DNA from: a virus
DNA length: 20,812 nucleotides
IMG/VR virus record: IMGVR_UViG_3300025435_000117
Span: 1-20,812 of that record
Strand: one strand, 5' to 3'
In this document: one piece after another, positions 510 to 15,955 of the stretch
Numbering within the stretch: the stretch's first letter is position 1
How the letters are laid out: each line of letters opens with the position of its first letter
Notes under the pieces: model-generated
Told to the model about the DNA's origin: nothing
The model's database searches: none
Seen by the model: only the letters and a program-made list of their open reading frames with translations
Made by a program: the position numbers and the translations under genes

Positions 510-1517
510 ATGGCACAATGGGGTCAAAACGATCAGAGCGTTACTGCTAACAGCTCAACAACTGCAGAATCATCAAAGGGCGCACCTATCGGTACCTACG
601 CCCTAGTTAAAGGTGACCAAGTAAACCGCGCAGACGGAGCTAATGCTCACTTCGGCAATACATCAGCTGGCTCGCGCGCATACACCGATTTTAACATGTT
701 TGGTAACACCACGATCGGTGCTTTTCAAGCAAACGTGGCCAAGGGTGTCTTCGCAGTTAATGCTCAGATGATGCAGTCGACCGGTGGTAACCTCGCTATC
801 GGCATTGTAACATCCGGTGGTTCAGGCTATCAAGCAAACGCTGCAGTTACTCTTACGGTAACAAGTGGTGGTACCGGCGGCGTTGTTAACGCATTCGCCA
901 ATACAACTGCAGGCTCATCCAATGCCGGACGCATCACAGCCCTCAACATTCAGACCAAGGGTTCTGCATATGTTAAGGCTCCTACAGTAGCTATCGCCGC
1001 TCCTGCAGCAATCAGCTTCTATGCTAACTCAACTGGCTTCGCAAACGGAACAGTTGCCGGCGCAGCAAATAGCTCGCTCATCATCACAAATGCCAACTCA
1101 TACTGGCAGGTAGGCGACCGCTTCTATTACGGTGTTCCAACAGCGAATACTCCAATCGCTCCTCTCACCGGCAACACATACTACTACGTATCATTTGCTA
1201 ACACAACCGTAATTAAGCTAGCAGCTACATCCGGTGGTGCAAACATCACCATCACAGATACTCGTACCACAGGTGCTGCAGAAACACACACCATCACCGG
1301 TGATACTGCAACCGGTTATGTAGATACCAACTCAGTGGTACCGCAGGTAACTCATGCCGGTTGGGTACTCCGCACAGAAGGTACAGGCGGTCGTGCAGGA
1401 CGTATTCACTACGAGACACTCGTGGCGATGCACTCAGTCGGTCAGAGCGGAACTACTGCAACTGGCGTATACGGTACAGCTACAGTAACTTCTAACACCG
1501 TCGATCAGTACGTATAA
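510..1517 (+). CDS. Virion structural protein, Gly/Ser/Thr/Asn-rich
   Basis: A 335-residue protein poor in charge and rich in Gly, Ala, Ser, Thr and Asn, typical of beta-rich phage structural proteins. Residues 95-165 contain two related segments: IGIVTSGGSGYQANAAVTL, then ITALNIQTKGSAYVKAPTVA. Both have the form of a strand followed by 'G-x-x-Y' and a second strand, suggesting a small tandem repeat. The conserved-looking C-terminal part (about residues 281-310) includes HAGWVLRTEGTGGRAGRIHYE. I recall this kind of sequence from structural proteins of T4-like marine phages. The start is fixed by a perfect AGGAGG at 495-500, nine bases before the ATG, downstream of a late promoter box. These signals predict abundant late expression. 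Capsid decoration, neck or tail are all possible locations. Confidence 0.8.
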   Translation: MAQWGQNDQSVTANSSTTAESSKGAPIGTYALVKGDQVNRADGANAHFGNTSAGSRAYTDFNMFGNTTIGAFQANVAKGVFAVNAQMMQSTGGNLAIGIVTSGGSGYQANAAVTLTVTSGGTGGVVNAFANTTAGSSNAGRITALNIQTKGSAYVKAPTVAIAAPAAISFYANSTGFANGTVAGAANSSLIITNANSYWQVGDRFYYGVPTANTPIAPLTGNTYYYVSFANTTVIKLAATSGGANITITDTRTTGAAETHTITGDTATGYVDTNSVVPQVTHAGWVLRTEGTGGRAGRIHYETLVAMHSVGQSGTTATGVYGTATVTSNTVDQYV

Positions 1518-1529
1518 TCGGTTTAGAAC

Positions 1530-2549
1530 ATGGCAAATGACTCCAAGAGAGTTTCGCAATTAGGGATCACGACTTCTGTCGCAGCAAACGACAGGATCGT
1601 GGTCTTGACCAATCCTGGGTCTGCCACTGCTAACTTACAGTCAATCACTGTAAACAATTTCAACAACTATGTAAAAATTGCCAATCTTAATAATGGATCT
1701 AATACTCTAAGCTTTGATGCCAATGGCGTTCTAAACTTTCCGAACGGTGTTAAGCTAGGTGCTAACATTGAGGGAGATAACGCTAGCTTTGACATGTATG
1801 CTCCGGCTACTCTAAACTACATGGGATTATCTTATGGGTCAAACGCTTCTACCGGCGCCGCCAGTTATCTTACTTTATACAAGATGGGATCTGATCTCAA
1901 CAGAGAACATCAATTAGGTATTCAAGTTTACAGAGGGACTGCCAACGGAGCCGACGGTGGTCTCACCGGTTGGCAATTTAATTCCAACGGCAGTATAACA
2001 TATCCGGATGGAACAGTAGATTATGGCAACACCATAATTGTTCCAGGAAACTATGATATTCAAAGCATATCAAATACTTATATCCAAACGAGTGCCTCCA
2101 GTGGTGCAAAGACTTGGAATTTTGACACGACTGGAACAGTAACATTCCCAGATAGCTCTACTCAAAGCACAGCTTTTAACTTAGCTTCTGCATATACATT
2201 CACAAACGTTCATACTTACTCAGCTAACGTAACTATTAATGCGTCTGTTAACGTTTCAACAAATACATTAACTCTTGGCACCTCGACAAAAGCTGCAAAC
2301 GGCTACACATACCTCCCAAATGGTATGAAGATGAACTGGGGTTCTTTTGTCTGCAATACCACCAGTAGAATTACTTTCTCCAGCGCGTTCGCAACAGCTT
2401 TAGTATCTCTTACTGTTACACCAAATGGTCCTTACTACGTAGGTGCAAACACTCCTTACATCTTTGCATCTAACACGACCACTGCAAATATCTACTCGGT
2501 CTCTACGACTACCACTAATACTGTTTATTATGTTGCAATAGGATACTAA
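1530..2549 (+). CDS. Tail-fibre-like protein with gp53-like C-terminal domain
   Basis: A 339-residue protein. Three imperfect copies of a fibre motif of the form 'F-x-x-x-G-x-(F/Y)-P-(D/N)-G/S' occur at residues 60-77 (SFDANGVLNFPNGVKLG), 148-166 (WQFNSNGSITYPDGTVDYG) and 196-213 (WNFDTTGTVTFPDSSTQS). These are common in structural proteins of marine T4-like phages. Residues 257-339 fit the C-terminal domain of gp53-like tail fibres: NGYTYLPNGMKMNWGSF, then strands, ending in VYYVAIGY. That domain commonly forms a trimeric receptor-binding tip. It lies 12 bases after the preceding structural gene and is probably on the same late transcript. The function is inferred from motifs. A role in host recognition is likely but unproven. 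Confidence 0.75.
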   Translation: MANDSKRVSQLGITTSVAANDRIVVLTNPGSATANLQSITVNNFNNYVKIANLNNGSNTLSFDANGVLNFPNGVKLGANIEGDNASFDMYAPATLNYMGLSYGSNASTGAASYLTLYKMGSDLNREHQLGIQVYRGTANGADGGLTGWQFNSNGSITYPDGTVDYGNTIIVPGNYDIQSISNTYIQTSASSGAKTWNFDTTGTVTFPDSSTQSTAFNLASAYTFTNVHTYSANVTINASVNVSTNTLTLGTSTKAANGYTYLPNGMKMNWGSFVCNTTSRITFSSAFATALVSLTVTPNGPYYVGANTPYIFASNTTTANIYSVSTTTTNTVYYVAIGY

Positions 2550-2563
2550 TAAAGAAATTTATA

Positions 2564-2962
2564 ATGCATGAAAAATTAAGTGATGATAATTTCTTGATAT
2601 ACTGCGCGAGGTACTACGATAATCCTCAATGCCACTCCACCGAAGAGTTCATTGAAGACTTAAAGAGGATCAAGTATATCAAGAAGCTTATTACTCGCTA
2701 TGTTGATAGCGGTGAGCTCAAAGATAGGTTGATCCTCAATCACTTAATCATACTTTATAATGTGTTTGGTGCCGAGCACATGACTCGCATACTATATCTT
2801 AAAATGAGAGGACAGTTCAAGTACATTAAGCCGTTCTTAATTCTACTTGGAGTCCTGCCTGAAAAGATCTATAATATTAAAGAAGAAGCCGTAATAAATA
2901 CTGATATAATACCTATGGACGACGTCATCGTTCAGTCGCTAAGGAAAGTTAAAGATGACTAA
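2564..2962 (+). CDS. Conserved T4-like phage protein of unknown function
   Basis: A 132-residue helical protein starting with MHEKLSDDNFLIYCARYYDN. The segment EEFIEDLKRIKYIKKLITRY at about residues 27-46 is followed by GELKDRLILNHLIILYNVFG. This pattern looks familiar from short conserved proteins of T4-like marine phages that sit next to structural genes, but I cannot assign a function. No membrane segment or catalytic motif is evident. The SD site is weak. The gene overlaps the next one by 8 bases (2955-2962), which supports a co-transcribed unit. Confidence 0.7.
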   Translation: MHEKLSDDNFLIYCARYYDNPQCHSTEEFIEDLKRIKYIKKLITRYVDSGELKDRLILNHLIILYNVFGAEHMTRILYLKMRGQFKYIKPFLILLGVLPEKIYNIKEEAVINTDIIPMDDVIVQSLRKVKDD

Positions 2963-3158
2963 CTTAAGAGAAGATGGCGCGGCCTTTGCATCTACCACAC
3001 CAGCAAATGCAGCTGGCTCTGGTGGGATTGCTGGAATTGGTGCGGGTGCAGCTGATCAACGTGAGCCCGGAGTAAATAAGAAAAAGAAGAAGCTCCGCGA
3101 CATCACAGTAATGTCAACGCCAATTAAGAGACTCTTGCCAAATGACCTCGAACGATAG
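2955..3158 (+). CDS. Small Ala/Gly-rich basic protein
   Basis: A 67-residue protein that overlaps both neighbours. Residues 8-35 are Ala/Gly-rich (AAFASTTPANAAGSGGIAG). Residues 42-46 are a run of five lysines, followed by LRDITVMSTPIKRLLPNDLER. The Ala/Gly/Pro linker followed by a basic patch suggests a flexible peptide that could bind nucleic acid or a virion surface, but this is only composition. I do not recognise a family. Reality is supported by the tight overlaps (8 bases upstream, 17 bases downstream) and the preserved frame. Confidence 0.5.
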   Translation: MTNLREDGAAFASTTPANAAGSGGIAGIGAGAADQREPGVNKKKKKLRDITVMSTPIKRLLPNDLER

Positions 3159-3522
3159 AATCGACATCGCTCTAGAGAAGCTAACCGAAATCTCAAGTGA
3201 GCTTAAAGCAATGATTGCAGTTCACGAGCAGCGCTTGAACCAGCAAGAAAAAGATACTGGCATCATCTTTAAGCTTCTAGAAAATAGAAGAAAAGAAATG
3301 GATGACAAGATCAATGAGGTCTATGTCGATATGAGTACAAAAGACAACAGCATCCTCGAGCACATCGAGCAGATGAGAAAAGAAGCCAACGAGCAGCACA
3401 AAGCTTTGAATGATAAGATCGGCAAGCTCGAGAAGTTCATCTGGGTAGCAATCGGCGGCGGTATGGTTCTCGTCTGGTTGCTATCATACGTAGCAAATTA
3501 CTTTAAGATTATGGGCCACTGA
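3142..3522 (+). CDS. Coiled-coil protein with C-terminal membrane segment
   Basis: A 126-residue protein. Residues 5-97 are almost wholly charged heptad-like helix (for example EISSELKAMIAVHEQRLNQQ), followed by one strong hydrophobic segment at about 98-118 (KFIWVAIGGGMVLVWLLSYV) and a short tail. This order (soluble coiled coil, then one membrane helix near the C-terminus) resembles XhlA/haemolysin-type and other small phage lysis-associated proteins. The similarity is architectural only. It is the last gene of the structural run, before a new promoter. It shares its layout with the reverse-strand proteins at 5967-7321, so it may act in the same membrane process. Confidence 0.65.
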   Translation: MTSNDRIDIALEKLTEISSELKAMIAVHEQRLNQQEKDTGIIFKLLENRRKEMDDKINEVYVDMSTKDNSILEHIEQMRKEANEQHKALNDKIGKLEKFIWVAIGGGMVLVWLLSYVANYFKIMGH

Positions 3523-3535
3523 CTAAAAATAACTG

Positions 3536-3563
3536 TTTACTTTTCTTCCAATCTGTGTATAAT
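3536..3563 (+). promoter_or_regulatory. Sigma70-like promoter before primase
   Basis: A perfect -10 hexamer TATAAT lies at 3558-3563. A moderate -35 (TTTACT at 3536-3541, four of six matches to TTGACA) is 16 bases upstream. The primase ATG is 27 bases after the -10 box, with GGAG at 3578-3581 placed eight bases before it. The element sits in one of the few intergenic gaps, exactly where structural genes give way to replication genes. This suggests a host-polymerase (early) promoter for the replication module. Confidence 0.6.
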
Positions 3564-3589
3564 AGATATATCGGATTGGAGTTATTGGA

Positions 3590-4609
3590 ATGAATTGGTT
3601 AGAACAGAAGTACATCAGTCTAGTATCCCACAGGCTAGAAAGATTCAGTAGAAAATCAGCGGGTAGGTATAACTTCAGGTGTCCGGTATGCGGGGACTCT
3701 GAGAAAGATAAGTACAAGGCTCGAGCATGGGTCTATGAGGTACAGGGCAAGGGCAGGTTCCACTGCTTCAACTGCTCTACTTCTATGGGAGTTCCCAAGT
3801 TTATCAAGATGCTCGACAGCAACATCTACTCAGAGTACATGCTTGAGAAGATGCGTGACCAGAAGACTCCTGAGCAGGTCGATCTTGAGAACTTTGTTAA
3901 TAAGATGAAGCCGCCTGAGTTTACCAAGACCACGCTCAAGGGGCTCAAGAAAGTAAGTCAACTACGCCACGATCACCCGATAAAGAAGTACATCGATGAG
4001 AGAAAGATTCCTCCAGCTTATCACTCTAAGCTCTACGTCTGTCATAACTTTTTCGCTTATGTCAATGGCCTCATTCCTGGCAAGTTTTCTGCCGAGTCGC
4101 TGAGGCGCGATGAGACACGACTCCTCATTCCCTTTCTTACAAGAGAGAAGAAAGTCCACGCTTTCCAAGGTAGGGCACTGGGCAAGAGCAATCTCAAGTA
4201 TATCACGATTGTTCTCGACGAGTCAGAGCCAAAGATCTATGGAATGGACACGGTTGACCTCACCAAGACTACGTACGTCTTTGAAGGTCCTATTGATAGC
4301 ATGTTTATTCCTAATTCTATCGCTACTGCGGGTGGCGACATCGCTTCTGCTCTATCTATTCTCGACAAGTCAAAGCTGGTAGTGGTTTACGACAATGAGC
4401 CTAGGTCAGCTGACACGATAAAAAAGATTGACAAGGCTAGGTTACTAGGTTATAATGTTTGCATATGGCCGGATAATATCGACGAGAAAGACGTGAACGA
4501 TATGGTAAAGTCTGGAATGAGTCCTGAGTTTATCAAGCACATCATCGATAAGAATACTTATAGAGATCTGGCCGCGAAGCTTGCTCTTACAGCATGGAGC
4601 AAAGTATGA
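3590..4609 (+). CDS. 61: DNA primase, T4 gp61 type
   Basis: A 339-residue protein, close to the length of T4 gp61. The N-terminal zinc-binding domain has C31-x2-C34 (FRCPVCGDS) and C59-x2-C62 (HCFNC), the DnaG-type ribbon that reads the template. A TOPRIM catalytic core follows: the Glu motif FEGPIDS at 231-237 (E232, D236), then VVVYDNE at 264-270 (D268) and DEKDVND at 298-304, which can bind metal ions. It would synthesise RNA primers for lagging-strand replication with a gp41-type helicase encoded elsewhere. The start has GGAG eight bases upstream behind a TATAAT promoter. The end overlaps the next gene as ATGA. Confidence 0.92.
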   Translation: MNWLEQKYISLVSHRLERFSRKSAGRYNFRCPVCGDSEKDKYKARAWVYEVQGKGRFHCFNCSTSMGVPKFIKMLDSNIYSEYMLEKMRDQKTPEQVDLENFVNKMKPPEFTKTTLKGLKKVSQLRHDHPIKKYIDERKIPPAYHSKLYVCHNFFAYVNGLIPGKFSAESLRRDETRLLIPFLTREKKVHAFQGRALGKSNLKYITIVLDESEPKIYGMDTVDLTKTTYVFEGPIDSMFIPNSIATAGGDIASALSILDKSKLVVVYDNEPRSADTIKKIDKARLLGYNVCIWPDNIDEKDVNDMVKSGMSPEFIKHIIDKNTYRDLAAKLALTAWSKV

Positions 4610-4812
4610 TTAAGCTGACAAATATGGCAGACGGCTACCTTGGAATGCCTGTATATATAGCTGTAGATAAGATAGTCTCTGTGTTTGAGGCTAGTGAAGA
4701 TGGTGAGGGAAGTCTCAGCACCGTCGTAATGACTGGACACGACCAACTCTGGGTAGTCGAAGAAGGTCTAAGTGAAGTGATTAAGTTAATAAGGGAAGTG
4801 AAGAATGCATAA
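4606..4812 (+). CDS. Small FlbD-like phage protein
   Basis: The ATG at 4606 overlaps the primase stop as ATGA and has GGAG at 4597-4600, so it is preferred to the in-frame ATG at 4594. The 68-residue product starts MIKLTNMADGYLGMPVYIAV. It has the pattern of a beta-rich N-terminus (about residues 1-45) followed by a short helix (EEGLSEVIKLIREV). This resembles the small FlbD-type fold (start MIKLT, ending in a 'V-x-E-x-x-x-E-V' helix), also seen in phage proteins of unknown role. Function is unknown. It lies between primase and thyX and overlaps thyX by 8 bases. Confidence 0.65.
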   Translation: MIKLTNMADGYLGMPVYIAVDKIVSVFEASEDGEGSLSTVVMTGHDQLWVVEEGLSEVIKLIREVKNA

Positions 4813-5497
4813 TGCTAGAATCGTAGCGGTGACGCAGCCAACCATCAGTAATCCCGATGATCCATTTGACTCTTTAATGGCAGTCGATGACTTCATCGCA
4901 TACGTGGCTCGAGTGTCTAATCCGTCCAACCAGCACAATACTCTTACAGCTAATAAGCTTATTCGGTATCTAGCCAAGCACAAGCACTGGTCACCATTTG
5001 AGATGGTGCACGTGGTTATGGAGATCAACACGACACGAGACATCGCTCGTCAGATCCTGCGTCACCGCAGCTTCACATTTCAGGAGTTTAGCCAGCGCTA
5101 TGCAGACCCTACAGGAGATCTTGGCTTTAGCCATCGAGAGGCACGTTTGCAGGATACAAAGAATCGTCAGAACTCTATCGAGTTATCTCCAAACGACAAG
5201 AAGATCGCTGAGCGCTGGGAGCAAGAACAGAAGTTTATCATTGACAATGTTAAGCGTAGCTATGATTGGGCGATTAAAGCAGGAATTGCAAAAGAGCAGG
5301 CACGGGCAGTTTTACCAGAAGGTCTTACAAATAGCCGTATGTATATGGCTGGTTCTCTGCGTAGCTGGATTCATTACTGCCAACTGAGAATGTCTAATGG
5401 AACTCAGAAAGAGCATCAGGAAGTCGCTACTGATGCTTGGTATCAGCTTACTGCTAAGTTTCCGTCCCTCAAAGACAGCTTAGACATCGGTAATTAA
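4805..5497 (+). CDS. thyX: Flavin-dependent thymidylate synthase ThyX
   Basis: A 230-residue protein of normal ThyX length. The family signature RHR-x7-S is complete: R86 H87 R88, then S96 (RHRSFTFQEFSQRY). The N-terminal HWSPFE at 61-66 and the C-terminal R/S-rich segment (NSRMYMAGSLRSWIHY) also fit. ThyX makes dTMP from dUMP using FAD, NADPH and methylene-tetrahydrofolate. It works here with NrdA/NrdB to supply thymidine nucleotides for phage DNA. It overlaps the preceding small gene by 8 bases. Its 3' end overlaps the end of the convergent DUF4337 gene by 4 bases with no visible terminator, so convergent transcripts could run into each other. Confidence 0.95.
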   Translation: MHNARIVAVTQPTISNPDDPFDSLMAVDDFIAYVARVSNPSNQHNTLTANKLIRYLAKHKHWSPFEMVHVVMEINTTRDIARQILRHRSFTFQEFSQRYADPTGDLGFSHREARLQDTKNRQNSIELSPNDKKIAERWEQEQKFIIDNVKRSYDWAIKAGIAKEQARAVLPEGLTNSRMYMAGSLRSWIHYCQLRMSNGTQKEHQEVATDAWYQLTAKFPSLKDSLDIGN

Positions 5498-5967
5498 AAG
5501 AAAAGCCAGTATCCATTAGAGAATAGCATGCTTGCAAATACTGCACAGCCTACGCTTGCCCAGAGTAGCTCCATGCTAACTGCGAGAATGGAAGTAGAAG
5601 AGAGAACCATGGCGATCTGAAGAAATGTAATAGCCATTGAGTACCAAGGGCTGCGCTTCTTAGCTTCGTCTCTATCAGCTTCGAGTTTACGAGCCTCCGC
5701 CATGATCTCTCTCTTCTCACTCTCGTACTTCGCAATCATCTTCTCGTCCGGCTCTACGCGAAGCTCATAGATATTCTGTTTAATTGACTTTGCCTGATAG
5801 AAAGACCAAGTGTCGTTGATAGAAAGAGTAGCGCTTAAGATCTTGCTGCTGTTGCCATTTGACACGAGAGAAAATACTGCGAGAAGTAGAGCAAAGATAG
5901 AGATCGTGACAGCGCCACGTCCTTTCATAATTGCTTCACCCTCTGATCTTGACATACCTTTTAGCAT
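5494..5967 (-). CDS. DUF4337-family membrane protein
   Basis: A 157-residue protein with a membrane helix at about residues 19-37 (AVTISIFALLLAVFSLV). The DUF4337-like core has NDTWSFYQAKSIKQNIYELR at 51-70. A charged helix follows (KYESEKREIMAEARKLEADR, 80-99), then two more hydrophobic helices at about 109-131 and 134-156. This order and the 'NDTW-x-F-x-QAKS' motif match my memory of DUF4337, a membrane family of unknown function found in bacteria. The start has a strong GGAGGAAAG site just upstream and overlaps the previous gene's stop as TAATG. It is the last gene of the reverse-strand cassette and ends inside the thyX stop region. Three membrane passes are predicted. The role is unknown. 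Confidence 0.75.
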   Translation of the reverse strand: MLKGMSRSEGEAIMKGRGAVTISIFALLLAVFSLVSNGNSSKILSATLSINDTWSFYQAKSIKQNIYELRVEPDEKMIAKYESEKREIMAEARKLEADRDEAKKRSPWYSMAITFLQIAMVLSSTSILAVSMELLWASVGCAVFASMLFSNGYWLFF

Positions 5968-6269
5968 TACTTTCCTCCAATTAAACTCTTAAGTAAACCT
6001 ACACCCTGCTTGGCCTGCATCATGTCAACTGGACCACTCTGAATAGAACCCCAGACTACTGCAACTAGTAACATCAATGTTAGTCCGCAGTTAATGATCT
6101 GGATTACTGAACCTATACCAAGAAGATGCTCTACCCTAACTAACTCACGGGCGAGTAAGCTAACCATCTCGACTTCAGTCTTACATCTCTCAGCTTCATT
6201 TAACCAGAATGCTTTTTCTTTCATCTCGGGAGGGTATCTTCTCTTGACTTCCTGATCTACTATGGCCAT
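5967..6269 (-). CDS. Small single-pass membrane protein
   Basis: A 100-residue protein. Residues 1-48 are charged and helical (EMKEKAFWLNEAERCKTEVE), followed by a hydrophobic segment at about 50-74 (IGSVIQIINCGLTLMLLVAV) and a short Gly/Lys tail. No enzyme motif is seen and I do not recognise a family. Its start overlaps the stop of the upstream gene as TAATG, and its own stop does the same with the DUF4337 gene, so three genes are translationally chained. Its size and single membrane helix would suit a holin or a small membrane adaptor, but this is only architecture. Confidence 0.65.
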   Translation of the reverse strand: MAIVDQEVKRRYPPEMKEKAFWLNEAERCKTEVEMVSLLARELVRVEHLLGIGSVIQIINCGLTLMLLVAVVWGSIQSGPVDMMQAKQGVGLLKSLIGGK

Positions 6270-6820
6270 TATTTGATACCAGCTTTAAATTCTAGTATCG
6301 ACAACCTCTTGTCAACGTTGCCTCTTGATATAGCCGCGTCTAAAGCTAGTTTATCTACGCGGTCGCCCAGTTCTTCTCTCAGCTGCTGTCTACCCAATGC
6401 AGCTTCTGCCTTTATCGCTGCCCTAGCTTGCGCAGCATCTGCCTGCATCTCGAGTGTAATCTTTTGATTGGATGCGATGCTCTTTTCTCTGTCGAGAGTC
6501 ATAGCGGCTCTTGCCAAAGCCGCTTCTTTTTCTACCTTGTCTATCTTCTCATTCAGAGATTCTCTGATCTGTGCCATGTCGATCGTCGTTCCCTGTGGAG
6601 GAATGGCCTTATTATCAGCATTGACGACTACGGCAACTTTGGATTTAAGTTGAATGATCTCGTTGTTAGCGGCACTCAAGGCCGACATCAAGTAAACGAC
6701 GCAGCTAAAGAGAATAGGAATGCCAGCGAATACGATCTTCTCAATCAATGCGCCCTTACTTTGGTTGGAAGCTAACTGTTGCTCGACCGCCGCGATCTTT
6801 TTATCTTCGTCTGTTAACAT
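6269..6820 (-). CDS. Membrane-anchored coiled-coil protein
   Basis: A 183-residue protein. A short charged N-terminus is followed by one membrane helix at about residues 28-50 (IVFAGIPILFSCVVYLMSAL). A long Ala/Glu/Lys-rich coiled coil spans roughly 85-175 (for example ALARAAMTLDREKSIASNQK and AAIKAEAALGRQQLREEL). The anchor-plus-coil layout is similar to i-spanins and other envelope-spanning proteins, though longer than most. It has GGAG eight bases before the ATG. It belongs to a four-gene reverse-strand run in which every product is a membrane protein. The function is unknown. Confidence 0.65.
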   Translation of the reverse strand: MLTDEDKKIAAVEQQLASNQSKGALIEKIVFAGIPILFSCVVYLMSALSAANNEIIQLKSKVAVVVNADNKAIPPQGTTIDMAQIRESLNEKIDKVEKEAALARAAMTLDREKSIASNQKITLEMQADAAQARAAIKAEAALGRQQLREELGDRVDKLALDAAISRGNVDKRLSILEFKAGIK

Positions 6821-6841
6821 GGTTTACTCCATTTTTTATTA

Positions 6842-7321
6842 TTAGAACCCAGGTAGTATCTTAGATAACATGTGATAAGTTGAGTAATCACCACTGGCTT
6901 TTGCCATCATAGCAAACGCTGCTAAGAATACCCATAAGATTGCTGGAACGATGATTATTAACACGCCGCCGAGAATCATTAGCTGTTCTCTCTCTTCTGC
7001 AGCTTCTTTTGCTTCTATCTCAGCGCGCGCGGCAGCTTTAGCCAGTTCGGCTTTATCTTTAAAGTACTTTTCTTTTTCTGCTGCTGAGAGGGTAACGAGC
7101 ATGCGAGCTTCTTCATCTTGAAGCTTCTTTGCATTCTCGGATCTTATTTTGGCATTCTTAATGGCTTGTCTTTGATTCTGTATCTTCATCTTGGCATTTG
7201 CAGCCTCTTTCATGCCCTTACGGTCTCTAAAGAGGTCTGTTATTCCAAATATGGACTCAGCTAGAACTTCGCCCCAAGCCTTGCCTAACTTGGCGGCATC
7301 TTTTGGATCTGTAGGTAGCAT
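6842..7321 (-). CDS. Coiled-coil protein with C-terminal membrane helix
   Basis: The start at 7321 is preferred because GAGAG lies about seven bases upstream; an in-frame ATG at 7354 lacks any SD site. The 159-residue product has a Gly/Lys N-terminus (KLGKAWGEVLAESIFGITDL). A long basic and Ala-rich helix follows at about 35-112, then a strong membrane helix at about 114-138 (LMILGGVLIIIVPAILWVFL) and a short tail. I do not recognise the family. It is the first gene after the minus-strand late promoter box at 7416-7409. Its architecture echoes that of the plus-strand gene at 3142-3522. Confidence 0.6.
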   Translation of the reverse strand: MLPTDPKDAAKLGKAWGEVLAESIFGITDLFRDRKGMKEAANAKMKIQNQRQAIKNAKIRSENAKKLQDEEARMLVTLSAAEKEKYFKDKAELAKAAARAEIEAKEAAEEREQLMILGGVLIIIVPAILWVFLAAFAMMAKASGDYSTYHMLSKILPGF

Positions 7322-7408
7322 TGAAATTCTCTCTTTTTTTATTTTTGTAAACATAAACTAAAGAGAGTTCAATCAGCGTTACATATAAGTAGTTGGTCCA
7401 ATCGTTAA

Positions 7409-7416
7409 TATTTATA
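7409..7416 (-). promoter_or_regulatory. Reverse-strand T4-type late promoter box
   Basis: The plus strand reads TATTTATA, so the minus strand carries an exact TATAAATA. It is about 88 bases upstream of the ATG of the first reverse-strand membrane gene and points toward it. It is one of only two exact copies found in the window, and both precede a gene run. It overlaps the region just before the plcP-like gene's SD site (7416-7421), so late transcription would start outward from the front of that gene. Confidence 0.7.
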
Positions 7417-7425
7417 GAGAGAAAC

Positions 7426-8196
7426 ATGGTAGAAGCCGCCAGATATAAGTCTATATTCATTTCCGACATACATTTAGGCACCAGAGGTAGCAAAGCAGAG
7501 GTTTTGCTATCGTTTCTCAAGGACGTGGAGTGCGACAACTTATTCTTGGTCGGAGATATATTTGATGGGTGGAGACTAAAGAAGGGTTGGTACTGGCCGC
7601 AGGAACACTCGACGGTCATACAGAAGATTCTTAGAATGTCTCGCAAGGGAACTAAGATAGTCTATCTTCCGGGAAACCACGACGAGTTTATGCGTCAGTT
7701 TCTAGAGCATAACTTTGGAAGCGTAGAGCTCCACGACGAGACAGTCTACGAGGCTCTTAATGGTAAGAAGTACGTCATAGTTCACGGCGATAAGTTTGAC
7801 TTGGTTACCATGAATATGAAGTGGCTGGCACATGTCGGCGACTGGGCATACTCTCTCCTCCTAAATATAAACACGGGACTGCACTGGGCTAGATCGTATC
7901 TCAGACTTCCCTATTGGTCACTATCTAAGTGGGCAAAACATAAAGTAAAAGAGGCAGTAAATTTTATAGGTAACTATGAAGATTCTCTCGCTCATTATGC
8001 TCGAATTAAACACGTTGATGGTGTTATCTGCGGGCATATTCATTCGGCTAATATTTCTATAATAGAAGATGTAGAGTACATGAACTGTGGGGACTGGGTT
8101 GAGTCGTGCACAGCATTGGTTGAGACTTTGGATGGAAAGTTTGAAATCATTCATTGGGGAGAAACCGATGTGGATACTAATCATACTGGCAATTAA
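7426..8196 (+). CDS. plcP: PlcP-like calcineurin-type phosphoesterase
   Basis: A 256-residue metallophosphoesterase with all metal-site motifs: D14-x-H16 (SDIHLG), G43-D44-x-x-D47, G83-N84-H85-D86, H120-G-D and G203-H204-I-H206. The surrounding segments WYWPQ (56-60), YWSLSKWAKHKVKEAVNFIG (163-182) and GDWVESC (222-228) are those I recall from the alphaproteobacterial PlcP branch of COG2908. That branch is often mis-labelled UDP-2,3-diacylglucosamine hydrolase (LpxH). PlcP removes phosphate-containing head groups from phosphatidylcholine and phosphatidylethanolamine at the inner membrane, leaving diacylglycerol. The ATG at 7426 with AGAGAG is preferred over an in-frame TTG at 7393. An Agt-like glycosyltransferase follows, as in bacterial lipid-remodelling loci. 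The substrate is inferred; a lipid A role cannot be excluded. Confidence 0.82.
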   Translation: MVEAARYKSIFISDIHLGTRGSKAEVLLSFLKDVECDNLFLVGDIFDGWRLKKGWYWPQEHSTVIQKILRMSRKGTKIVYLPGNHDEFMRQFLEHNFGSVELHDETVYEALNGKKYVIVHGDKFDLVTMNMKWLAHVGDWAYSLLLNINTGLHWARSYLRLPYWSLSKWAKHKVKEAVNFIGNYEDSLAHYARIKHVDGVICGHIHSANISIIEDVEYMNCGDWVESCTALVETLDGKFEIIHWGETDVDTNHTGN

Positions 8197-8338
8197 TGTT
8201 AACAATCCTGATGACATTCCTGGACAGGTTACTTTAAAGTTTCAAAACGGTCAGCAGTGCTACGAAGCACTGGCCTCACTTCAGTACAAGCTTAAATTTA
8301 GTAACTTTTATGTGTCGGGCAAATGTCAAAGATCTTAA
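8168..8338 (+). CDS. 56-residue protein with hydrophobic N-terminus
   Basis: The ATG at 8168 has a very strong SD site (GGGGAG at 8156-8161, six bases upstream), so I choose it over a longer frame that begins inside the plcP-like gene. The product starts MWILIILAINV, which could be a signal peptide or anchor. It continues with DIPGQVTLKFQNGQQCYEAL and ends with a second cysteine (SGKCQRS); the two cysteines could pair outside the cytoplasm. It overlaps the plcP-like gene by 29 bases and the agt-like gene by 16, linking the two enzymes translationally. Small proteins of this pattern occur in T4-like marine phages. The function is unknown. Confidence 0.65.
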   Translation: MWILIILAINVNNPDDIPGQVTLKFQNGQQCYEALASLQYKLKFSNFYVSGKCQRS

Positions 8339-9399
8339 TCGTAACAGATTGCTATGAGCCATCAATCAACGGCGTCGTAACAACACTCAAGAACATAAAG
8401 AAAGAAGCCGAGAAAGACGGGTACCAAGTGCTCGTCATAGAGCCGTCTCTCTTTCGCAACTTCAGCTCAATGATATATCCGGACGTGAAGATCTCTATTC
8501 CAATCGGCTTCAGCAAGATGATAGATGAGTTTGGTCCGGACTATATTCATATCGCGACAGAGGGAGTTCTTGGGATCTCAGCTCTGTTCTACTGCAAGAA
8601 GAAGAACTACAACTTCACCACTGCTTTTCATACCAAGTGGGGCGAGTTCCTCAACAGTATTCTTCACATCCCAGTTAGCTGGACAAACTCTTGGCTCAGA
8701 AGATTCCACAAGAACAAGATCGTGTTCTGCACCTCGCAGTCGATGATAGACTACTTGACAAAAGAGAAGATAGGTAAGACACTTATCAGCTGGTCTCGCG
8801 GGGTCGACACAGATATCTTTGGCCCGCCAAGACTGACTCGCAATCAAAATAATATCTTCATCAAGCCGAGAAACCTGTTAACAGTCAATAGAATAAGCAA
8901 AGAAAAGAATCTCGATGCCTTCTGTCAGCTGTCGCATTTCCTATATAATCTTACGGTGGTCGGAGACGGCCCCTATCTCAAAGAACTAAAATCAAAGTAT
9001 CCAAAAGTAAAATTCAAGGGAGCACTTACTGGTAAGGAGCTAGCTGCGGAATATGCTGCAGCCGACTGTTTCGTCTTTCCCAGTAAGAATGACACGTTTG
9101 GCGTGGTGAACATCGAGGCTCAGACTATGGGAACACCGGTCGCGGCTTATCCCGTAACCGGTCCAATTGATATTATTGTAAATGGAGTCAATGGATATGT
9201 GCACAATGATCTTAATGTTGCTATAAAGCACGCATTAAAGGTTGACAGAAAGGCCTGCTTTGATTATACTATAGATAGGTACTCGTGGAAGAGCGTTTGG
9301 AATACATTTAAAGAAAACATGGTAGGAGTAGAAAAGAATGATGGCGACGATTCAGGTAGTAAAGAGGGACGGAACAAAGGAGCTGCTGGACCTCAATAA
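8323..9399 (+). CDS. agt: Agt-like family 1/GT4 glycosyltransferase
   Basis: A 358-residue GT-B enzyme. The N-terminal domain has ILIVTDCYEPSINGVVTTL (4-22), YIHIATEG (74-81) and FHTKWGEF (102-109). The hinge has SWSRGVDTDIFGPP (156-169). The C-terminal donor-binding domain has VVGDGPYLKEL (212-222) and FVFPSKNDTFGVVNIEA (250-266). The order and wording resemble the Agt-type glycosyltransferases next to plcP in Alphaproteobacteria, which add glucose or glucuronic acid to diacylglycerol. It would use the product of the neighbouring PlcP-like enzyme. Oddly, the last 20 residues (339-358) are low-complexity and come from reading out of frame through the first 62 bases of nrdA. Donor and acceptor are not shown by sequence. 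Confidence 0.8.
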   Translation: MSKILIVTDCYEPSINGVVTTLKNIKKEAEKDGYQVLVIEPSLFRNFSSMIYPDVKISIPIGFSKMIDEFGPDYIHIATEGVLGISALFYCKKKNYNFTTAFHTKWGEFLNSILHIPVSWTNSWLRRFHKNKIVFCTSQSMIDYLTKEKIGKTLISWSRGVDTDIFGPPRLTRNQNNIFIKPRNLLTVNRISKEKNLDAFCQLSHFLYNLTVVGDGPYLKELKSKYPKVKFKGALTGKELAAEYAAADCFVFPSKNDTFGVVNIEAQTMGTPVAAYPVTGPIDIIVNGVNGYVHNDLNVAIKHALKVDRKACFDYTIDRYSWKSVWNTFKENMVGVEKNDGDDSGSKEGRNKGAAGPQ

Positions 9400-11632
9400 G
9401 TTTCACAAGGTCGTCGCGTGGGCTTGCGAGGGTTTAAGTGGAGTCTCTGAATCGCAGATCGAGATCAACTCTCACATCCAGTTCTTCAACGGCATCAAGA
9501 CTACAGAAGTTCAAGAGACCCTGATCAAGGCCGCCGCCGAGCTCATCAGCGAGGAGTCACCTAACTACCAGTACGTAGCTGGCAACCTCATCAACTATAA
9601 TCTTAGGAAAGAAGTCTATGGAAGTTATAATCCCGTTGATCTTGGTAGCCATATTAGGAAAGTTGTTGAGCTGGGGTACTATGACCCTGATATTGAAAAA
9701 TGGTATTCGCCTTTTGATCTTGCTTATCTTGATTCAGTTATTGATCACAAGCGAGATTTTAATCTCACATATGCAGGGATGGAACAGTTCCGCGGCAAGT
9801 ATCTCGTTAAGAACAGAGTAACGGGCAAGTACTTTGAGACACCACAGATGGCTTTCATGCTCATTGGGATGGTGTTGTTTAGAAACTATCCAAGTGAAAC
9901 GCGTCTAAAGTGGGTGAAGGACTTCTATGATTCAGTCTCTAATTTCGAAATTTCGCTACCAACTCCTATCATGGCGGGCTTACGCACACCTCAAAAGCAG
10001 TTCTCTTCGTGTGTTCTTATTGAGACGGGAGATAGCCTTGACTCAATCAACGCCACGAGTTCTGCGATCGTTAAGTACGTCAGTCAAAAAGCTGGTATTG
10101 GTATTGGTGCTGGGTCCATTCGCGCTATTGGTTCTCCTATCAGGAGCGGTGATGCGTCTCATACCGGCGTTGTTCCGTTCTATAAGCATTTCCAGTCTGC
10201 CGTTAAGAGTTGCAGTCAGGGAGGAGTTAGAGGCGGCGCGGCGACTCTTTACTATCCTATTTGGCACTTAGAAGTAGAAGACTTATTAGTACTCAAGAAC
10301 AACAAGGGAACGGAAGATAATCGTGTCAGACATCTCGACTACGGAGTCCAATTCAATAAAGTTATGTATGAGAGACTGCTTGCTGGCGGAAACATCACTC
10401 TCTTCTCGCCGTCAGATGTTCCTGAGTTGTACGAGACGTTTTTCACGAATACAGACAGGTTCCGTGAGCTCTATGAAAGAGCAGAGAAGAACAGCAAACT
10501 TCGCAAGAAATCGGTACCTGCGATCGACCTCTTCTCTGCTTTTATGCAAGAGCGAAAAGATACTGGGCGAATCTATCTTCAAAATGTGGACCACGCTAAC
10601 GACCACGGTTCGTTCATTAAGGAACTCGCACCGATAAGGCAGTCCAACCTCTGCTCTGAGATCGACCTGCCTACCAAGCCACTCAATGACCTGCACGATC
10701 CAGTTGGAGAGATCTCGCTCTGCACTCTGGCTGCTATTAACTGGGGAAAGATCCGTGAGACTTCTGATTTTCAAAGGCCTTGTACGCTTATTGTTCGTGC
10801 TCTTGACGAGCTTCTGGATTACCAAGATTATCCTGTCTATGCAGCAAGAAAATCTACAATGGACAGACGTCCTCTGGGCGTCGGTATCATCAATCTCGCT
10901 TATTGGCTGGCTCGCAATGACCTATCTTATCAACACATTGGAGTGGATGGACTAGCCAAGCTGCATGAGTATGCCGAAGCTTGGTCTTACTACCTGATCA
11001 AGGCATCAGTCGACTTGGCAGAAGAGAAGGGTATGATTCCCAAGGCCCGCGAGACTAAGTACTATCATGGTCAGTTCCCAATCGACACCTATAAGAAAGA
11101 AGTAGACGAACTTGTAACTCCAGTTTACAAGTTGGACTGGGAGTCTCTCAGAGCAAAGGCACAAACTTATGGCACCCGTAATTCCACACTCATGGCCCTC
11201 ATGCCAGCGGAAACCTCTGCTCAGATCTCCAACTCTACTAATGGAATCGAGCCTCCTAGATCTCTCGTCTCTGTTAAGCAAAGCAAGGACGGCGTTCTCA
11301 AGCAGGTCGTGCCCGAAGTCAGAAAGCTTAAGAAGAAGTACGATCTACTTTGGGACCAAAAGTCACCCGAGGGCTATCTCAAGATCTGCGCGGTCCTTCA
11401 GAAGTTTATTGATCAGGGTATCTCGGTAAACACCTCTTATAATCCAAAGCACTTTGACGGCGAGGAGATCCCGCTGTCACTGATGCTGCAGCACCTGTTG
11501 ATGTTCTATAAGTATGGTGGAAAACAGCTATATTATTTTAACACCGCGGATGGGGCAGGCGAGTTGGATGTTGGTACTCCACTCGCCATTGGTGAAACAG
11601 ATGACGAGGATTGCGAAGCATGCAAGATCTAA
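9338..11632 (+). CDS. nrdA: Ribonucleoside-diphosphate reductase, large subunit
   Basis: A 764-residue class Ia NrdA that makes dNDPs from NDPs with NrdB. An ATP-cone domain occupies residues 4-95 (VVKRDGTKELLDLNKFHKVV). The catalytic barrel keeps C225, N437, C439, E441 and C462, the same numbers as in E. coli NrdA. The radical-transfer tyrosines are Y732-Y733 (KQLYYFN). The C-terminal tail ends DCEACKI, with a C759-x2-C762 pair for re-reduction, shorter than the x4 spacing in E. coli. The phage glutaredoxin at 19140 is a natural partner. AGGAG at 9324-9328 supports the ATG at 9338, deep inside the end of agt. The ATP cone implies allosteric control by ATP/dATP. Confidence 0.96.
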   Translation: MMATIQVVKRDGTKELLDLNKFHKVVAWACEGLSGVSESQIEINSHIQFFNGIKTTEVQETLIKAAAELISEESPNYQYVAGNLINYNLRKEVYGSYNPVDLGSHIRKVVELGYYDPDIEKWYSPFDLAYLDSVIDHKRDFNLTYAGMEQFRGKYLVKNRVTGKYFETPQMAFMLIGMVLFRNYPSETRLKWVKDFYDSVSNFEISLPTPIMAGLRTPQKQFSSCVLIETGDSLDSINATSSAIVKYVSQKAGIGIGAGSIRAIGSPIRSGDASHTGVVPFYKHFQSAVKSCSQGGVRGGAATLYYPIWHLEVEDLLVLKNNKGTEDNRVRHLDYGVQFNKVMYERLLAGGNITLFSPSDVPELYETFFTNTDRFRELYERAEKNSKLRKKSVPAIDLFSAFMQERKDTGRIYLQNVDHANDHGSFIKELAPIRQSNLCSEIDLPTKPLNDLHDPVGEISLCTLAAINWGKIRETSDFQRPCTLIVRALDELLDYQDYPVYAARKSTMDRRPLGVGIINLAYWLARNDLSYQHIGVDGLAKLHEYAEAWSYYLIKASVDLAEEKGMIPKARETKYYHGQFPIDTYKKEVDELVTPVYKLDWESLRAKAQTYGTRNSTLMALMPAETSAQISNSTNGIEPPRSLVSVKQSKDGVLKQVVPEVRKLKKKYDLLWDQKSPEGYLKICAVLQKFIDQGISVNTSYNPKHFDGEEIPLSLMLQHLLMFYKYGGKQLYYFNTADGAGELDVGTPLAIGETDDEDCEACKI

Positions 11633-12292: not shown

Positions 12293-13399
12293 ATGAGTGT
12301 ATTCGATTCAACTAACCGTAAAGATCCTACAAAGGTAAGAGCGTTCTTTGACGATCCGCCTACCATTGCTCGCTACGACAAGCAGAAGTACCCATTCCTT
12401 GAGAAGCTGACGACTCAGCAGCTCGGGTTCTTCTGGCGTCCAGAGGAGATCGACATCTATCGCGATGCTAAAGACTTCAAAGGATTGACACCGCATGAGC
12501 AGCACATCTTTACATCAAACCTCAAGCGTCAGATCCTACTCGACAGTGTACAAGGTAGAGCTCCTACGGTCGCCTTCGGTCCAATTTGTAGTCTACCAGA
12601 ACTTGAGAACTGGATCCTTACATGGGCATTTAGCGAGTCCATCCACTCTAGATCATACACTCATATTATCAGAAACATCTACTCTAACCCATCAGAGGTG
12701 TTCGACGGTATTCTAGACATGCAGGAGATCGTAGACTGCGCTGGCGACATCAGCAAGTACTACGATGAGTTGATTGCTTATAATAACGACTTGGAACATT
12801 CAAAAAATTTAGGTCAGAAAATTCTGCATGAAAAGTATGAGCACAAGAAAGCTCTGTGGCTCACACTTATGTCAGTCAACATTCTTGAGGGCGTTCGCTT
12901 CTACGTCAGCTTTGCATGCTCGTGGGCATTTGCAGAGTTGAAGAAGATGGAGGGTAATGCCAAGATTATCAAGTTGATTGCACGAGATGAGAACCTGCAT
13001 CTCGCCGGTACTCAACAGATGCTCAAGGTACTCGTAACCGATGATCCCGACTTCGCTAAGATTCGCGAAGAGACCAAGGACGAGTGCATCAAGATGTTTA
13101 AAGATGCAGCCGAGCAAGAGAAGGCTTGGGCTCACTACCTGTTCAAGGATGGCTCGATGATCGGTCTCAACGAGACACTTCTCAACGACTACGTTGAGTG
13201 GATCTGCAACAAGCGAATGACTGCAGTCGGACTCACGCCTATATATAAGAATGGATCAAACCCGCTACCTTGGACACAGAAGTGGATCAGCGGCGCGGAG
13301 GTTCAAGTCGCTCCACAGGAAACAGAGATCACCAGCTACATTACTGGTGGCGTTAAGAAGGATATATCTGATGAAACTTTTAAAGGCTTTTCTCTATAG
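12293..13399 (+). CDS. nrdB: Ribonucleoside-diphosphate reductase, small subunit
   Basis: A 368-residue class Ia NrdB that holds the di-iron centre and tyrosyl radical for NrdA. Ligands D84 (ILLDSVQGR), E115 and H118 (FSESIHSRSY) and the radical Y122 fall at the same numbers as in E. coli. E199 (ILEGVRFY), E233 and H236 (ARDENLHL) complete the iron site. The family is therefore a standard iron/tyrosyl enzyme, not a phenylalanine-type or tyrosine-less variant. AAGGA six bases upstream supports the start. The 3' end overlaps the exported nuclease gene by 29 bases. Confidence 0.96.
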   Translation: MSVFDSTNRKDPTKVRAFFDDPPTIARYDKQKYPFLEKLTTQQLGFFWRPEEIDIYRDAKDFKGLTPHEQHIFTSNLKRQILLDSVQGRAPTVAFGPICSLPELENWILTWAFSESIHSRSYTHIIRNIYSNPSEVFDGILDMQEIVDCAGDISKYYDELIAYNNDLEHSKNLGQKILHEKYEHKKALWLTLMSVNILEGVRFYVSFACSWAFAELKKMEGNAKIIKLIARDENLHLAGTQQMLKVLVTDDPDFAKIREETKDECIKMFKDAAEQEKAWAHYLFKDGSMIGLNETLLNDYVEWICNKRMTAVGLTPIYKNGSNPLPWTQKWISGAEVQVAPQETEITSYITGGVKKDISDETFKGFSL

Positions 13400-14177
13400 T
13401 CTAGTACTATTCACAACCGCTACATTTGCAGCGGACCAGCAACCACCTAAACCAGTAGCTTCATGCGCAGCGCAGGTACCCTATGGCACACCTTCAACCG
13501 TTGCTAATCACCCAGTTATCTGTCGCAATGCTTATATCTTGGAGCATGACCCAGTTGCTAAGATCCCGAATTGGGTTGCTTGGACTCTTACGCCTGAGCA
13601 TGCTATTGGCTGCGTTGCTCGGACTAATGCTTTCGCTACTGATCAATCTCTACCTAACGGAGCCCGCTCTACTCCCGCTGATTACGCCCATTCTGGCTAC
13701 GATCAGGGTCATCTAGCAAACGACGCCGACATGTCGTGGGATGATCAGGTAGAGCATGAGTCTTTCTACATGTCAAACATGTCTCCTCAGCTGCCCTCAG
13801 TTAATCGCGGCACTTGGAAGAACTTAGAATCCGCGGCGCGCGCGTGGGTTTATTCTACCAAGCATCCGTTCACCATCTATGCTGGCAACGTGTACTCTTC
13901 TTCATCGAAGACGATCGGCGACGACAAGGTGGTGGTACCCGACACTCTGTTCAAGATCGTCATCGACGATGTGACAAAGAAGTCATATGCATTTTTATTC
14001 CCTCACAAGGACGGTCTCGACTCAGACTTTACTAAATATCAGGTAACAGTTGCCGAGGTTGAAGTGGCTTCTAAGATTGTATTCCCAGTACCGGATTCAA
14101 AGACAACTAAGAATCCAGTTCCAGTGACTGACCTTAAAACATTGGCAGCAGACAAGAAGAAGCAATGTAAGGAGTAA
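13371..14177 (+). CDS. Exported DNA/RNA non-specific endonuclease (NucA type)
   Basis: The ATG at 13371 has AAGGA at 13358-13362 and opens a clear signal peptide (MKLLKAFLYSLVLFTTATFA, probable cleavage after residue 20). The longer frame upstream is only nrdB read out of frame. The 268-residue product carries the beta-beta-alpha-metal nuclease core: D111-Q-G-H114 in place of the usual DRGH, N136 (MSNMSPQ) and N145-R-G-T-W, which fit the magnesium-binding Asn and its surroundings. Four cysteines (32, 51, 81, 266) could form disulfides outside the cytoplasm. It would cut DNA and RNA without sequence preference in the periplasm or after lysis. The DQGH variant also occurs in related phage enzymes as I recall. 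Activity is not proven. Confidence 0.85.
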   Translation: MKLLKAFLYSLVLFTTATFAADQQPPKPVASCAAQVPYGTPSTVANHPVICRNAYILEHDPVAKIPNWVAWTLTPEHAIGCVARTNAFATDQSLPNGARSTPADYAHSGYDQGHLANDADMSWDDQVEHESFYMSNMSPQLPSVNRGTWKNLESAARAWVYSTKHPFTIYAGNVYSSSSKTIGDDKVVVPDTLFKIVIDDVTKKSYAFLFPHKDGLDSDFTKYQVTVAEVEVASKIVFPVPDSKTTKNPVPVTDLKTLAADKKKQCKE

Positions 14178-14870: not shown

Positions 14871-15341
14871 ATGAAACAGATGAACTTAGAAGAAGTTAGA
14901 GACTTCATCAGAAACACAAGCGACACCACTAAGATCTACATCGGAGCAGACTCGGAGCGACACAATAGAAAAGGATTGTGGTACGCCGACTACACACTCG
15001 CGGTTGTTATCCACCACGACGGCTGCAGAGGATGCAAAGTGTTCGGCGAGGTAGTGACCGAGCGCGACTACGACCAGAAGAAAGATAAGCCGGCCATGCG
15101 TCTCATGAACGAGGTGATGAAGGCTGCTCAGCTTTATCTCGACTTGGCCGAGTGCGTAGGCGATCGCCACTTTGAAGTTCATCTCGACATCAATCCAGAC
15201 GTCATGCACGGCTCTTCATGCGTGGCTCAGCAGGCTGTTGGTTATATCCGTGGCATGTGTAACGTAGTGCCGATGATCAAGCCAAATGCGTTCGCTGCAT
15301 CATACGCTGCAGACAGATTAAAGGACATCCTCGCTGCATGA
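14871..15341 (+). CDS. YkuK/DUF458-type RNase H-like protein
   Basis: A 156-residue protein. IYIGADSERH (22-31) gives the first acidic residue (D27) of an RNase H-like fold, and HLDINPD (104-110) gives another strand with D106. The C-terminal IKPNAFAASYAADRL (136-150) matches the 'KP-x-A-x-A-A-x-x-A-D' ending of the YkuK family. That family is conserved in bacteria and T4-like phages and its biochemical role is unclear. A second in-frame ATG at 14880 is possible. It overlaps the methyltransferase gene as ATGA (15338). Confidence 0.75.
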   Translation: MKQMNLEEVRDFIRNTSDTTKIYIGADSERHNRKGLWYADYTLAVVIHHDGCRGCKVFGEVVTERDYDQKKDKPAMRLMNEVMKAAQLYLDLAECVGDRHFEVHLDINPDVMHGSSCVAQQAVGYIRGMCNVVPMIKPNAFAASYAADRLKDILAA

Positions 15342-15955
15342 GTATTATATTATCCGAACTTATCAAGTACTCAGATACTTGGGAAGGTCATGTGAAGTTT
15401 GCAAAGTGGTTGGCGGCTCAGTGGGATTATCCTCAGATCATTGATCTTGGTGTAGACTACGGGCTGTCAACTTTCTCGTTCGCTCTCGGCAACAGGTGTG
15501 CCGATGTAACAGGTATCGACTGCTTCGAGGGAGATCCCCAGTCAGGCTTTCGCGATACTCAGCAGGTTGTCAACGACTTCAAGGCAAAGCATAACCTGAC
15601 AAATATAAACTTCATCAAGGGATACTTTGATGAGGTAGCTGAGCAATTGAGGTACTGCATCCTCGCCGACATCATCCATATCGATGGGCTGCATACTTAT
15701 GAAGCGGTCAAGCACGACTTCAATACTTGGCTTCCCATGCTCAAGCATGATGGCGTCATCCTTATGCATGATACACGAGCATACAAGCCGGGTTTTGGTG
15801 TGGGTAAGTTCTTCTCAGAGATCAACATGCCTAAGCTAAACTTCAGCGGCTCGTATGGTCTTGGTGTAGTAAGTAGAGATGCTGAGTTGATTGATAAGAT
15901 TTACGATGAGTTCACTGACAAGATTGATTATCTCTATTATCCAGGTGGTAAATGA
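15338..15955 (+). CDS. SAM-dependent class I methyltransferase
   Basis: A 205-residue protein with a Rossmann-type SAM fold. Motif I is QIIDLGVDYGLSTFSFA (33-49) and the acidic end of strand 2 is VTGIDCFEG (57-65). The later motif IIHIDGLHTYEAVKHDFNTW (112-131) with ILMHDT is typical of the Methyltransf_24 family. Members often modify sugars or cell-surface glycans. The gene overlaps the YkuK-like and glycosyltransferase genes by 4 bases each. It therefore probably works with the glycosyltransferase on a carbohydrate substrate, which is inference from context. Confidence 0.8.
   Translation: MSIILSELIKYSDTWEGHVKFAKWLAAQWDYPQIIDLGVDYGLSTFSFALGNRCADVTGIDCFEGDPQSGFRDTQQVVNDFKAKHNLTNINFIKGYFDEVAEQLRYCILADIIHIDGLHTYEAVKHDFNTWLPMLKHDGVILMHDTRAYKPGFGVGKFFSEINMPKLNFSGSYGLGVVSRDAELIDKIYDEFTDKIDYLYYPGGK

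Follow-up and report, generated by a model that had tools for sequence, protein, structure and literature searches.

The stretch of DNA analysed here, referred to as the window, is the 20,812-bp viral fragment of IMG/VR record IMGVR_UViG_3300025435_000117. At 7426..8196 on the plus strand it carries plcP, whose product of 256 aa is assigned by motifs, Pfam, tree and residues to the PlcP-type (phospholipase C-like) calcineurin-fold metallophosphoesterases. It is followed on the same strand by agt (8323..9399), which encodes 358 aa and is placed by Pfam, tree, residues and synteny with the Agt-type GT4 diacylglycerol glycosyltransferases. plcP could also start from a TTG at 7393, though the ATG at 7426 is favoured because the AGAGAG directly upstream of it resembles a ribosome site. 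The end of plcP and the start of agt lie 127 bp apart, and the 3′ end of agt overlaps by 62 bp the start of nrdA (9338..11632, plus strand), the gene for the large chain of class I ribonucleotide reductase. A sequence-only reading of this DNA had placed both genes at 7426-9399 with nrdA directly after them, and the open reading frames bear this out. The order plcP-agt-nrdA, with an overlap of similar length, is also found in L001 and L003; the latter, a 62.8-kb contig, has most of the window gene order in common and encodes a T4-like DNA polymerase.

Further plus-strand genes in the window are nrdB (12293..13399), encoding the small chain of ribonucleotide reductase, and thyX (4805..5497), encoding a thymidylate synthase for DNA precursor supply. 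Two genes serve as viral markers, a phage DNA primase (3590..4609, plus strand; phrog_47, 2.2e-79) and a tail-fibre-like protein with a gp53-like C-terminal domain (1530..2549, plus strand; PF21882, 31.4 bits against a cut-off of 24.9). A DNA/RNA non-specific endonuclease (13251-14177, plus strand), which seems to bear a signal peptide and is encoded near plcP in several related phages as well, may be a source of nucleotides from DNA. The window also encodes a SegE-type GIY-YIG nuclease and, within a minus-strand group adjoining plcP, a DUF4337 protein (5494-5967; E 1.3e-31). At 15338-17151 on the plus strand, the genes for a methyltransferase (PF13578) and then a GT2-family glycosyltransferase (the latter at 15952-17151) make up a second sugar-transfer module. 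PADLOC gave no defence-system match for either the plcP or the agt product.

The plcP product contains the motifs SDIHLG, GDIFDGW, WYWPQ, GNHDE, HGDKFD, NFIG, GHIH and GDWVESC, so that every phosphoesterase motif claimed by the sequence-only reading was recovered, and with them the full calcineurin-type metal-binding set (DxH, GDxxD, GNHD, H, GHxH). The Pfam family Metallophos matches at 1.1e-11, though Pfam resolves the superfamily only. Identity to an alphaproteobacterial PlcP is 57% over 243 aa, far beyond chance, and 104 of 289 alphaproteobacterial genomes contain a match. The active-site residues D14, H16, D44, N84, H85, H120, H204 and H206 are invariant or nearly so among viral and bacterial members. 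In a tree of 86 proteins, in which orthologues of experimentally tested PlcPs stood in for the tested sequences, window PlcP groups with the plcP products of lipid-remodelling bacteria, and the LpxH proteins of E. coli and Ideonella are split from all PlcP-type rows with a support of 100; the exact positions of LpxH, S-SRM01 and L049 in this tree are unsure because their branches are long. Individual residues follow the same division: GNHD, with H85, is present in all 117 viral and all 130 bacterial PlcP sequences as against GNRD in three of three LpxH, GHIH or GHVH in PlcP stands against GHTH in LpxH, and the WYWPQ segment is missing from LpxH. By these sequence comparisons, the assignment of the 7426-8196 product to the PlcP-type phosphoesterases rather than to LpxH is confirmed.

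The agt product matches the Pfam families Glycos_transf_1 (9.2e-21) and Glyco_transf_4 (9.2e-13), and its structural model has a GT-B fold (pLDDT 90). Among 14 plcP-bearing bacterial genomes, the gene adjacent to plcP is the best match to window Agt in 11, and such plcP-adjacent bacterial genes are 34-45% identical to it (E 1e-56 to 1e-80), again far beyond chance. Matches to other GT4 paralogues are shorter and far weaker, with the exception of second Agt-like copies in three genomes. In the tree, all plcP-adjacent phage glycosyltransferases fall inside the Agt group, and a branch with a support of 97 unites the window sequence with three low-GC alphaproteobacterial genomes and 21 viral rows. 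Close to the phage Agt branch, low-GC genomes of about 1.4-1.6 Mb have a SAR11-like look. In the characterised SAR11 enzyme (GTcp), a His104-Asp256 dyad and further residues were found by mutation to be essential or crucial (PMC8231724). Our comparison with it rests on the published residue numbers and on Agt orthologues. The corresponding dyad of window Agt is His103-Asp257, and 13 of the 14 key residues are identical (G17, G81, G84, H103, R159, R190, K195, D257, T258, F259, G260, E265 and W322). The odd one is T162 of SAR11, which is S158 in the window; bacterial Agt, too, most often has serine at this place. Among 140 viral Agt sequences, most of the key positions do not vary, and the family motifs GRVxxEKN and FPSxTDTFG appear in the window as NRISKEKN and FPSKNDTFG. 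The GT4 glycosyltransferase of Agt pattern that had been proposed for 8323-9399 is thus confirmed at the level of sequence, and it falls in the Agt clade rather than with capsule or LPS enzymes.

A search of viral genomes for the pair, as the sequence-only reading had suggested, showed that the window is one case among many. In scans of IMG/VR, in which genes within 2 kb were counted as neighbours, agt lies near plcP in 59 of 111 viral plcP loci after removal of duplicates. Starting from the 80 best agt loci, plcP lies nearby in 76, and two of the four exceptions end at a contig edge; because the best-scoring loci were kept, these counts are not unbiased frequencies. For comparison, 54 of 80 bacterial plcP loci have an agt neighbour. 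At 85% identity the viral plcP genes form 98 clusters, at least 70 of which have a paired member. A scan with window Agt alone matched only two syntenic contigs, and the wider set was retrieved by an alignment scan. At four loci (L043 6807-7544, L173 1619-2362, L184 4338-5048 and L187 1831-2541), the gene after plcP encodes not Agt but a GT2-family glycosyltransferase, possibly an alternative partner. At L007 (1596-2666; also L008, L009 and L037), a 356-residue protein without Pfam match begins 5 bp after plcP.

With respect to the viruses involved, the T4-like major capsid protein gp23 is encoded on 13 of 50 plcP contigs, among them L004, whose PlcP is 81% identical to that of the window. Of 22 long agt contigs, 10 encode it. 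Terminase or T4-like polymerase genes mark further contigs, primase is found on some, and a tail-sheath model, with a match in one of 26, was of no use as a phage marker. Where it could be estimated, dN/dS was 0.03-0.10 for plcP and 0.06-0.20 for agt, values which indicate that both genes are under strong purifying selection. Lying in a viral genome among phage neighbours and bearing this mark of selection, the two are, as far as sequence can tell, auxiliary metabolic genes of the phage.

In several viral lineages plcP stands beside nrdA, nrdB or thyX, although such proximity to nrd genes may mean no more than that they lie in the same region of early or middle genes. A link to phosphorus is found on sister contigs. 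In L356 (contig G363, 1873-7079), phoX, pstS, plcP and agt follow one another on a single strand; a search of G363 for hallmark phage genes found none, and the IMG/VR call is the basis for regarding it as viral. L355 (G366, 518-5020), on a contig that encodes a T4-like polymerase, has plcP-agt-pstS and a phosphate-selective porin gene on one strand. In L357, whose contig encodes capsid protein, terminase and primase, pstS and three further genes precede plcP-agt, while L171 has the order plcP-agt-pstS, L174 and L179 have plcP-pstS, and in the Pelagibacter phage Mosig pstS adjoins plcP divergently. Against a role in phosphorus salvage stands that the window has no pstS, and that among the sampled contigs pstS scored above the TIGR00975 cut-off in only three of 50 and three of 22, though this model misses some.

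In its regulation, phage plcP appears to depart from bacterial plcP. With a simple PHO-box score over the 250 bp upstream of plcP, significant PHO-box-like sites were found for 40% of bacterial plcP genes, many of them about 75-95 bp upstream, which served as a positive control. Among phage plcP genes the figure was 6.5%, near chance, and no site above chance was found in the 250 bp upstream of window plcP. Since phage plcP lacks a recognisable PHO box, host PhoB probably does not control its expression, and phosphate limitation probably does not induce it in the way that it induces the host gene. The pair thus seems, from its upstream sequence, to have been freed from PhoB, at least at the plcP promoter. 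Such independence fits a phage that needs phosphate whatever the host senses, and equally leaves room for a role at the cell surface. It is a trait of gene control and has no bearing on the identity of the enzymes. Just upstream of plcP, at 7409-7416 on the minus strand, a TATAAATA site like that of T4 late promoters faces the small minus-strand genes at 5494-7354; there are two sites of this type in the window, which is not above chance (17 of 100 shuffles).

In bacteria, PlcP converts phospholipid to diacylglycerol, from which Agt makes mono-glucosyl and glucuronosyl diacylglycerol (PMC4796936, PMC9239053, PMC8231724). The proposal that the window encodes a PlcP-Agt pair for lipid remodelling drew support from sequence, tree, residue and synteny tests, and we consider it probable that the two genes form a phage auxiliary metabolic module which remodels the host membrane and supplies phosphate to DNA precursors. 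In such a module, PlcP would cut host glycerophospholipids (PE, PC or PG) to diacylglycerol and a phospho-headgroup, and Agt would add glucose, galactose or glucuronic acid from the UDP form to the diacylglycerol, so that the resulting glycolipid would take the place of the lost phospholipid and keep the membrane intact. The sequence-only reading had further suggested that phosphate is stripped from phospholipids for nucleotide synthesis. This phosphorus-salvage role gains support because sister contigs set the pair beside pstS, phoX and a phosphate porin, and the nrd and thyX neighbours speak for it as well; what does not stand is direct phosphate release, since PlcP, as a phospholipase C, releases a phospho-headgroup, and a second phosphatase is required for free phosphate. 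Host phosphatases would hydrolyse the headgroup further, and the freed phosphate would feed the DNA-precursor pathway whose genes nrdA, nrdB and thyX surround the pair.

A cell of 0.5 micrometre contains a few million phospholipids, and a genome of 140 kb contains 280,000 phosphates. With these assumed sizes, the membrane would hold phosphorus for on the order of ten phage genomes, a rough estimate by which the supply is useful though not dominant. It is possible, though here we lean slightly against, that T4-like, large-genome and other phages impose a phospholipid-to-glycolipid swap independently of the host Pho system, such that infected cells mine their membranes even without phosphate limitation, make glycolipids that are at present attributed to starved bacteria, and have a surface unlike that of uninfected cells.

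Several other explanations have to be weighed against a phosphorus-salvaging membrane module. One is that an LpxH-like phosphoesterase and an LPS or capsule glycosyltransferase together edit lipopolysaccharide. GenBank phages do name the gene UDP-2,3-diacylglucosamine hydrolase, and the nearest solved structures to the AlphaFold model of window PlcP (mean pLDDT 80, with a poorly defined helical lid) are those of LpxH; the enzymes are related, which accounts for the likeness, and the fold does not set the substrate. LpxH identity is rejected by the tree split, by the GNHD and GHIH residues and by profile scores of 49.0 and 54.7 bits against cut-offs of 190.35 and 134, scores that bacterial PlcP proteins about equal. 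Furthermore, two betaproteobacterial genomes encode both LpxH and a separate PlcP, and the glycosyltransferase matches plcP-adjacent Agt and not other GT4 paralogues, so that lipopolysaccharide editing is already contradicted and highly improbable. DNA glucosyltransferases are known in T4-like phages and the window holds a second glycosyltransferase (the GT2 protein), which might suggest that agt acts on phage DNA or protein, as T4 alpha-glucosyltransferase does on DNA. However, window Agt matched no other glycosyltransferase family above cut-off, on which ground a T4-type DNA glucosyltransferase was rejected, its lipid-acceptor residues are kept, and it is tightly coupled to plcP, the predicted product of which is the Agt acceptor; we give this idea the least credence of all. 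Nor is it at all probable that the genes are passengers without phage function, captured recently from a host or mis-binned from a bacterium. The window is a fragment, and one related 'viral' plcP (L035, 7830-8771, IMGVR 2852813956_000002) does group with bacteria and likely represents flanking host DNA, but phage PlcP proteins otherwise form viral-only groups and phage Agt proteins a mostly viral one, which contradicts the passenger idea for the group, as do the capsid, terminase, polymerase and primase genes on their contigs and the low dN/dS.

A weightier competitor, which we nevertheless regard as unlikely, holds that the pair remodels the membrane for physical or surface effects (receptors, a block to superinfection, fluidity or lysis) and that phosphate release is incidental. 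The absence of PHO boxes from phage plcP would allow remodelling at any phosphate status, agt is missing next to plcP in roughly half of the viral loci, and lipid composition is reported to affect phage adsorption in bacteria (PMC9804370; PMC9938194). Against this stands the recurrent linkage to pstS, phoX, the phosphate porin and DNA-precursor genes, although surface effects and phosphorus salvage may coexist.

If phosphorus salvage is the correct reading, the recurrence of the pair would imply that viruses may mine host membranes for phosphorus, and infection would be tied to the glycolipids by which phosphorus stress in waters is gauged. Current annotation hides plcP under the name lpxH. 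The phages Mosig EXVC030M and S-SRM01 encode PlcP relatives (47.8% and 36.1% identity), both mislabelled as LpxH of lipid A biosynthesis and neither with an adjoining agt; lpxH is also listed in surveys of viral genes (PMC10653327, PMC9611531), and our guess is that these entries are PlcP. At least one large survey of the oceans leaves out any contig that encodes a glycosyltransferase or an endonuclease (PMC11360552), a rule by which contigs like the window would be dropped. Our search of the open-licence full-text literature found no described plcP-agt system in phages, a scope in which a paper published elsewhere could be missed. The proposal is directly testable, since assays are known for both enzymes and the plcP-carrying phage Mosig and its host are in culture.

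The phage pair has both enzymes, their order and strand and their active-site residues in common with the bacterial plcP-agt of SAR11, Agrobacterium, Methylosinus and Pseudomonas aeruginosa (PMC4796936, PMC8231724, PMC9239053). It differs from these in its phage-specific branches in both trees, in having no upstream PHO box and in its setting among nrd and thyX genes. Phage phosphorus genes such as pstS, phoA, phoD and ugpQ (PMC10987575), some of which adjoin plcP-agt, likewise raise phosphorus supply; the words phospholipid, glycolipid and lipid are absent from the main text of that study. However, those genes serve uptake, the use of external esters or regulation, whereas plcP-agt would tap the phosphorus of the host membrane itself, refilling it with glycolipid and so keeping it whole.
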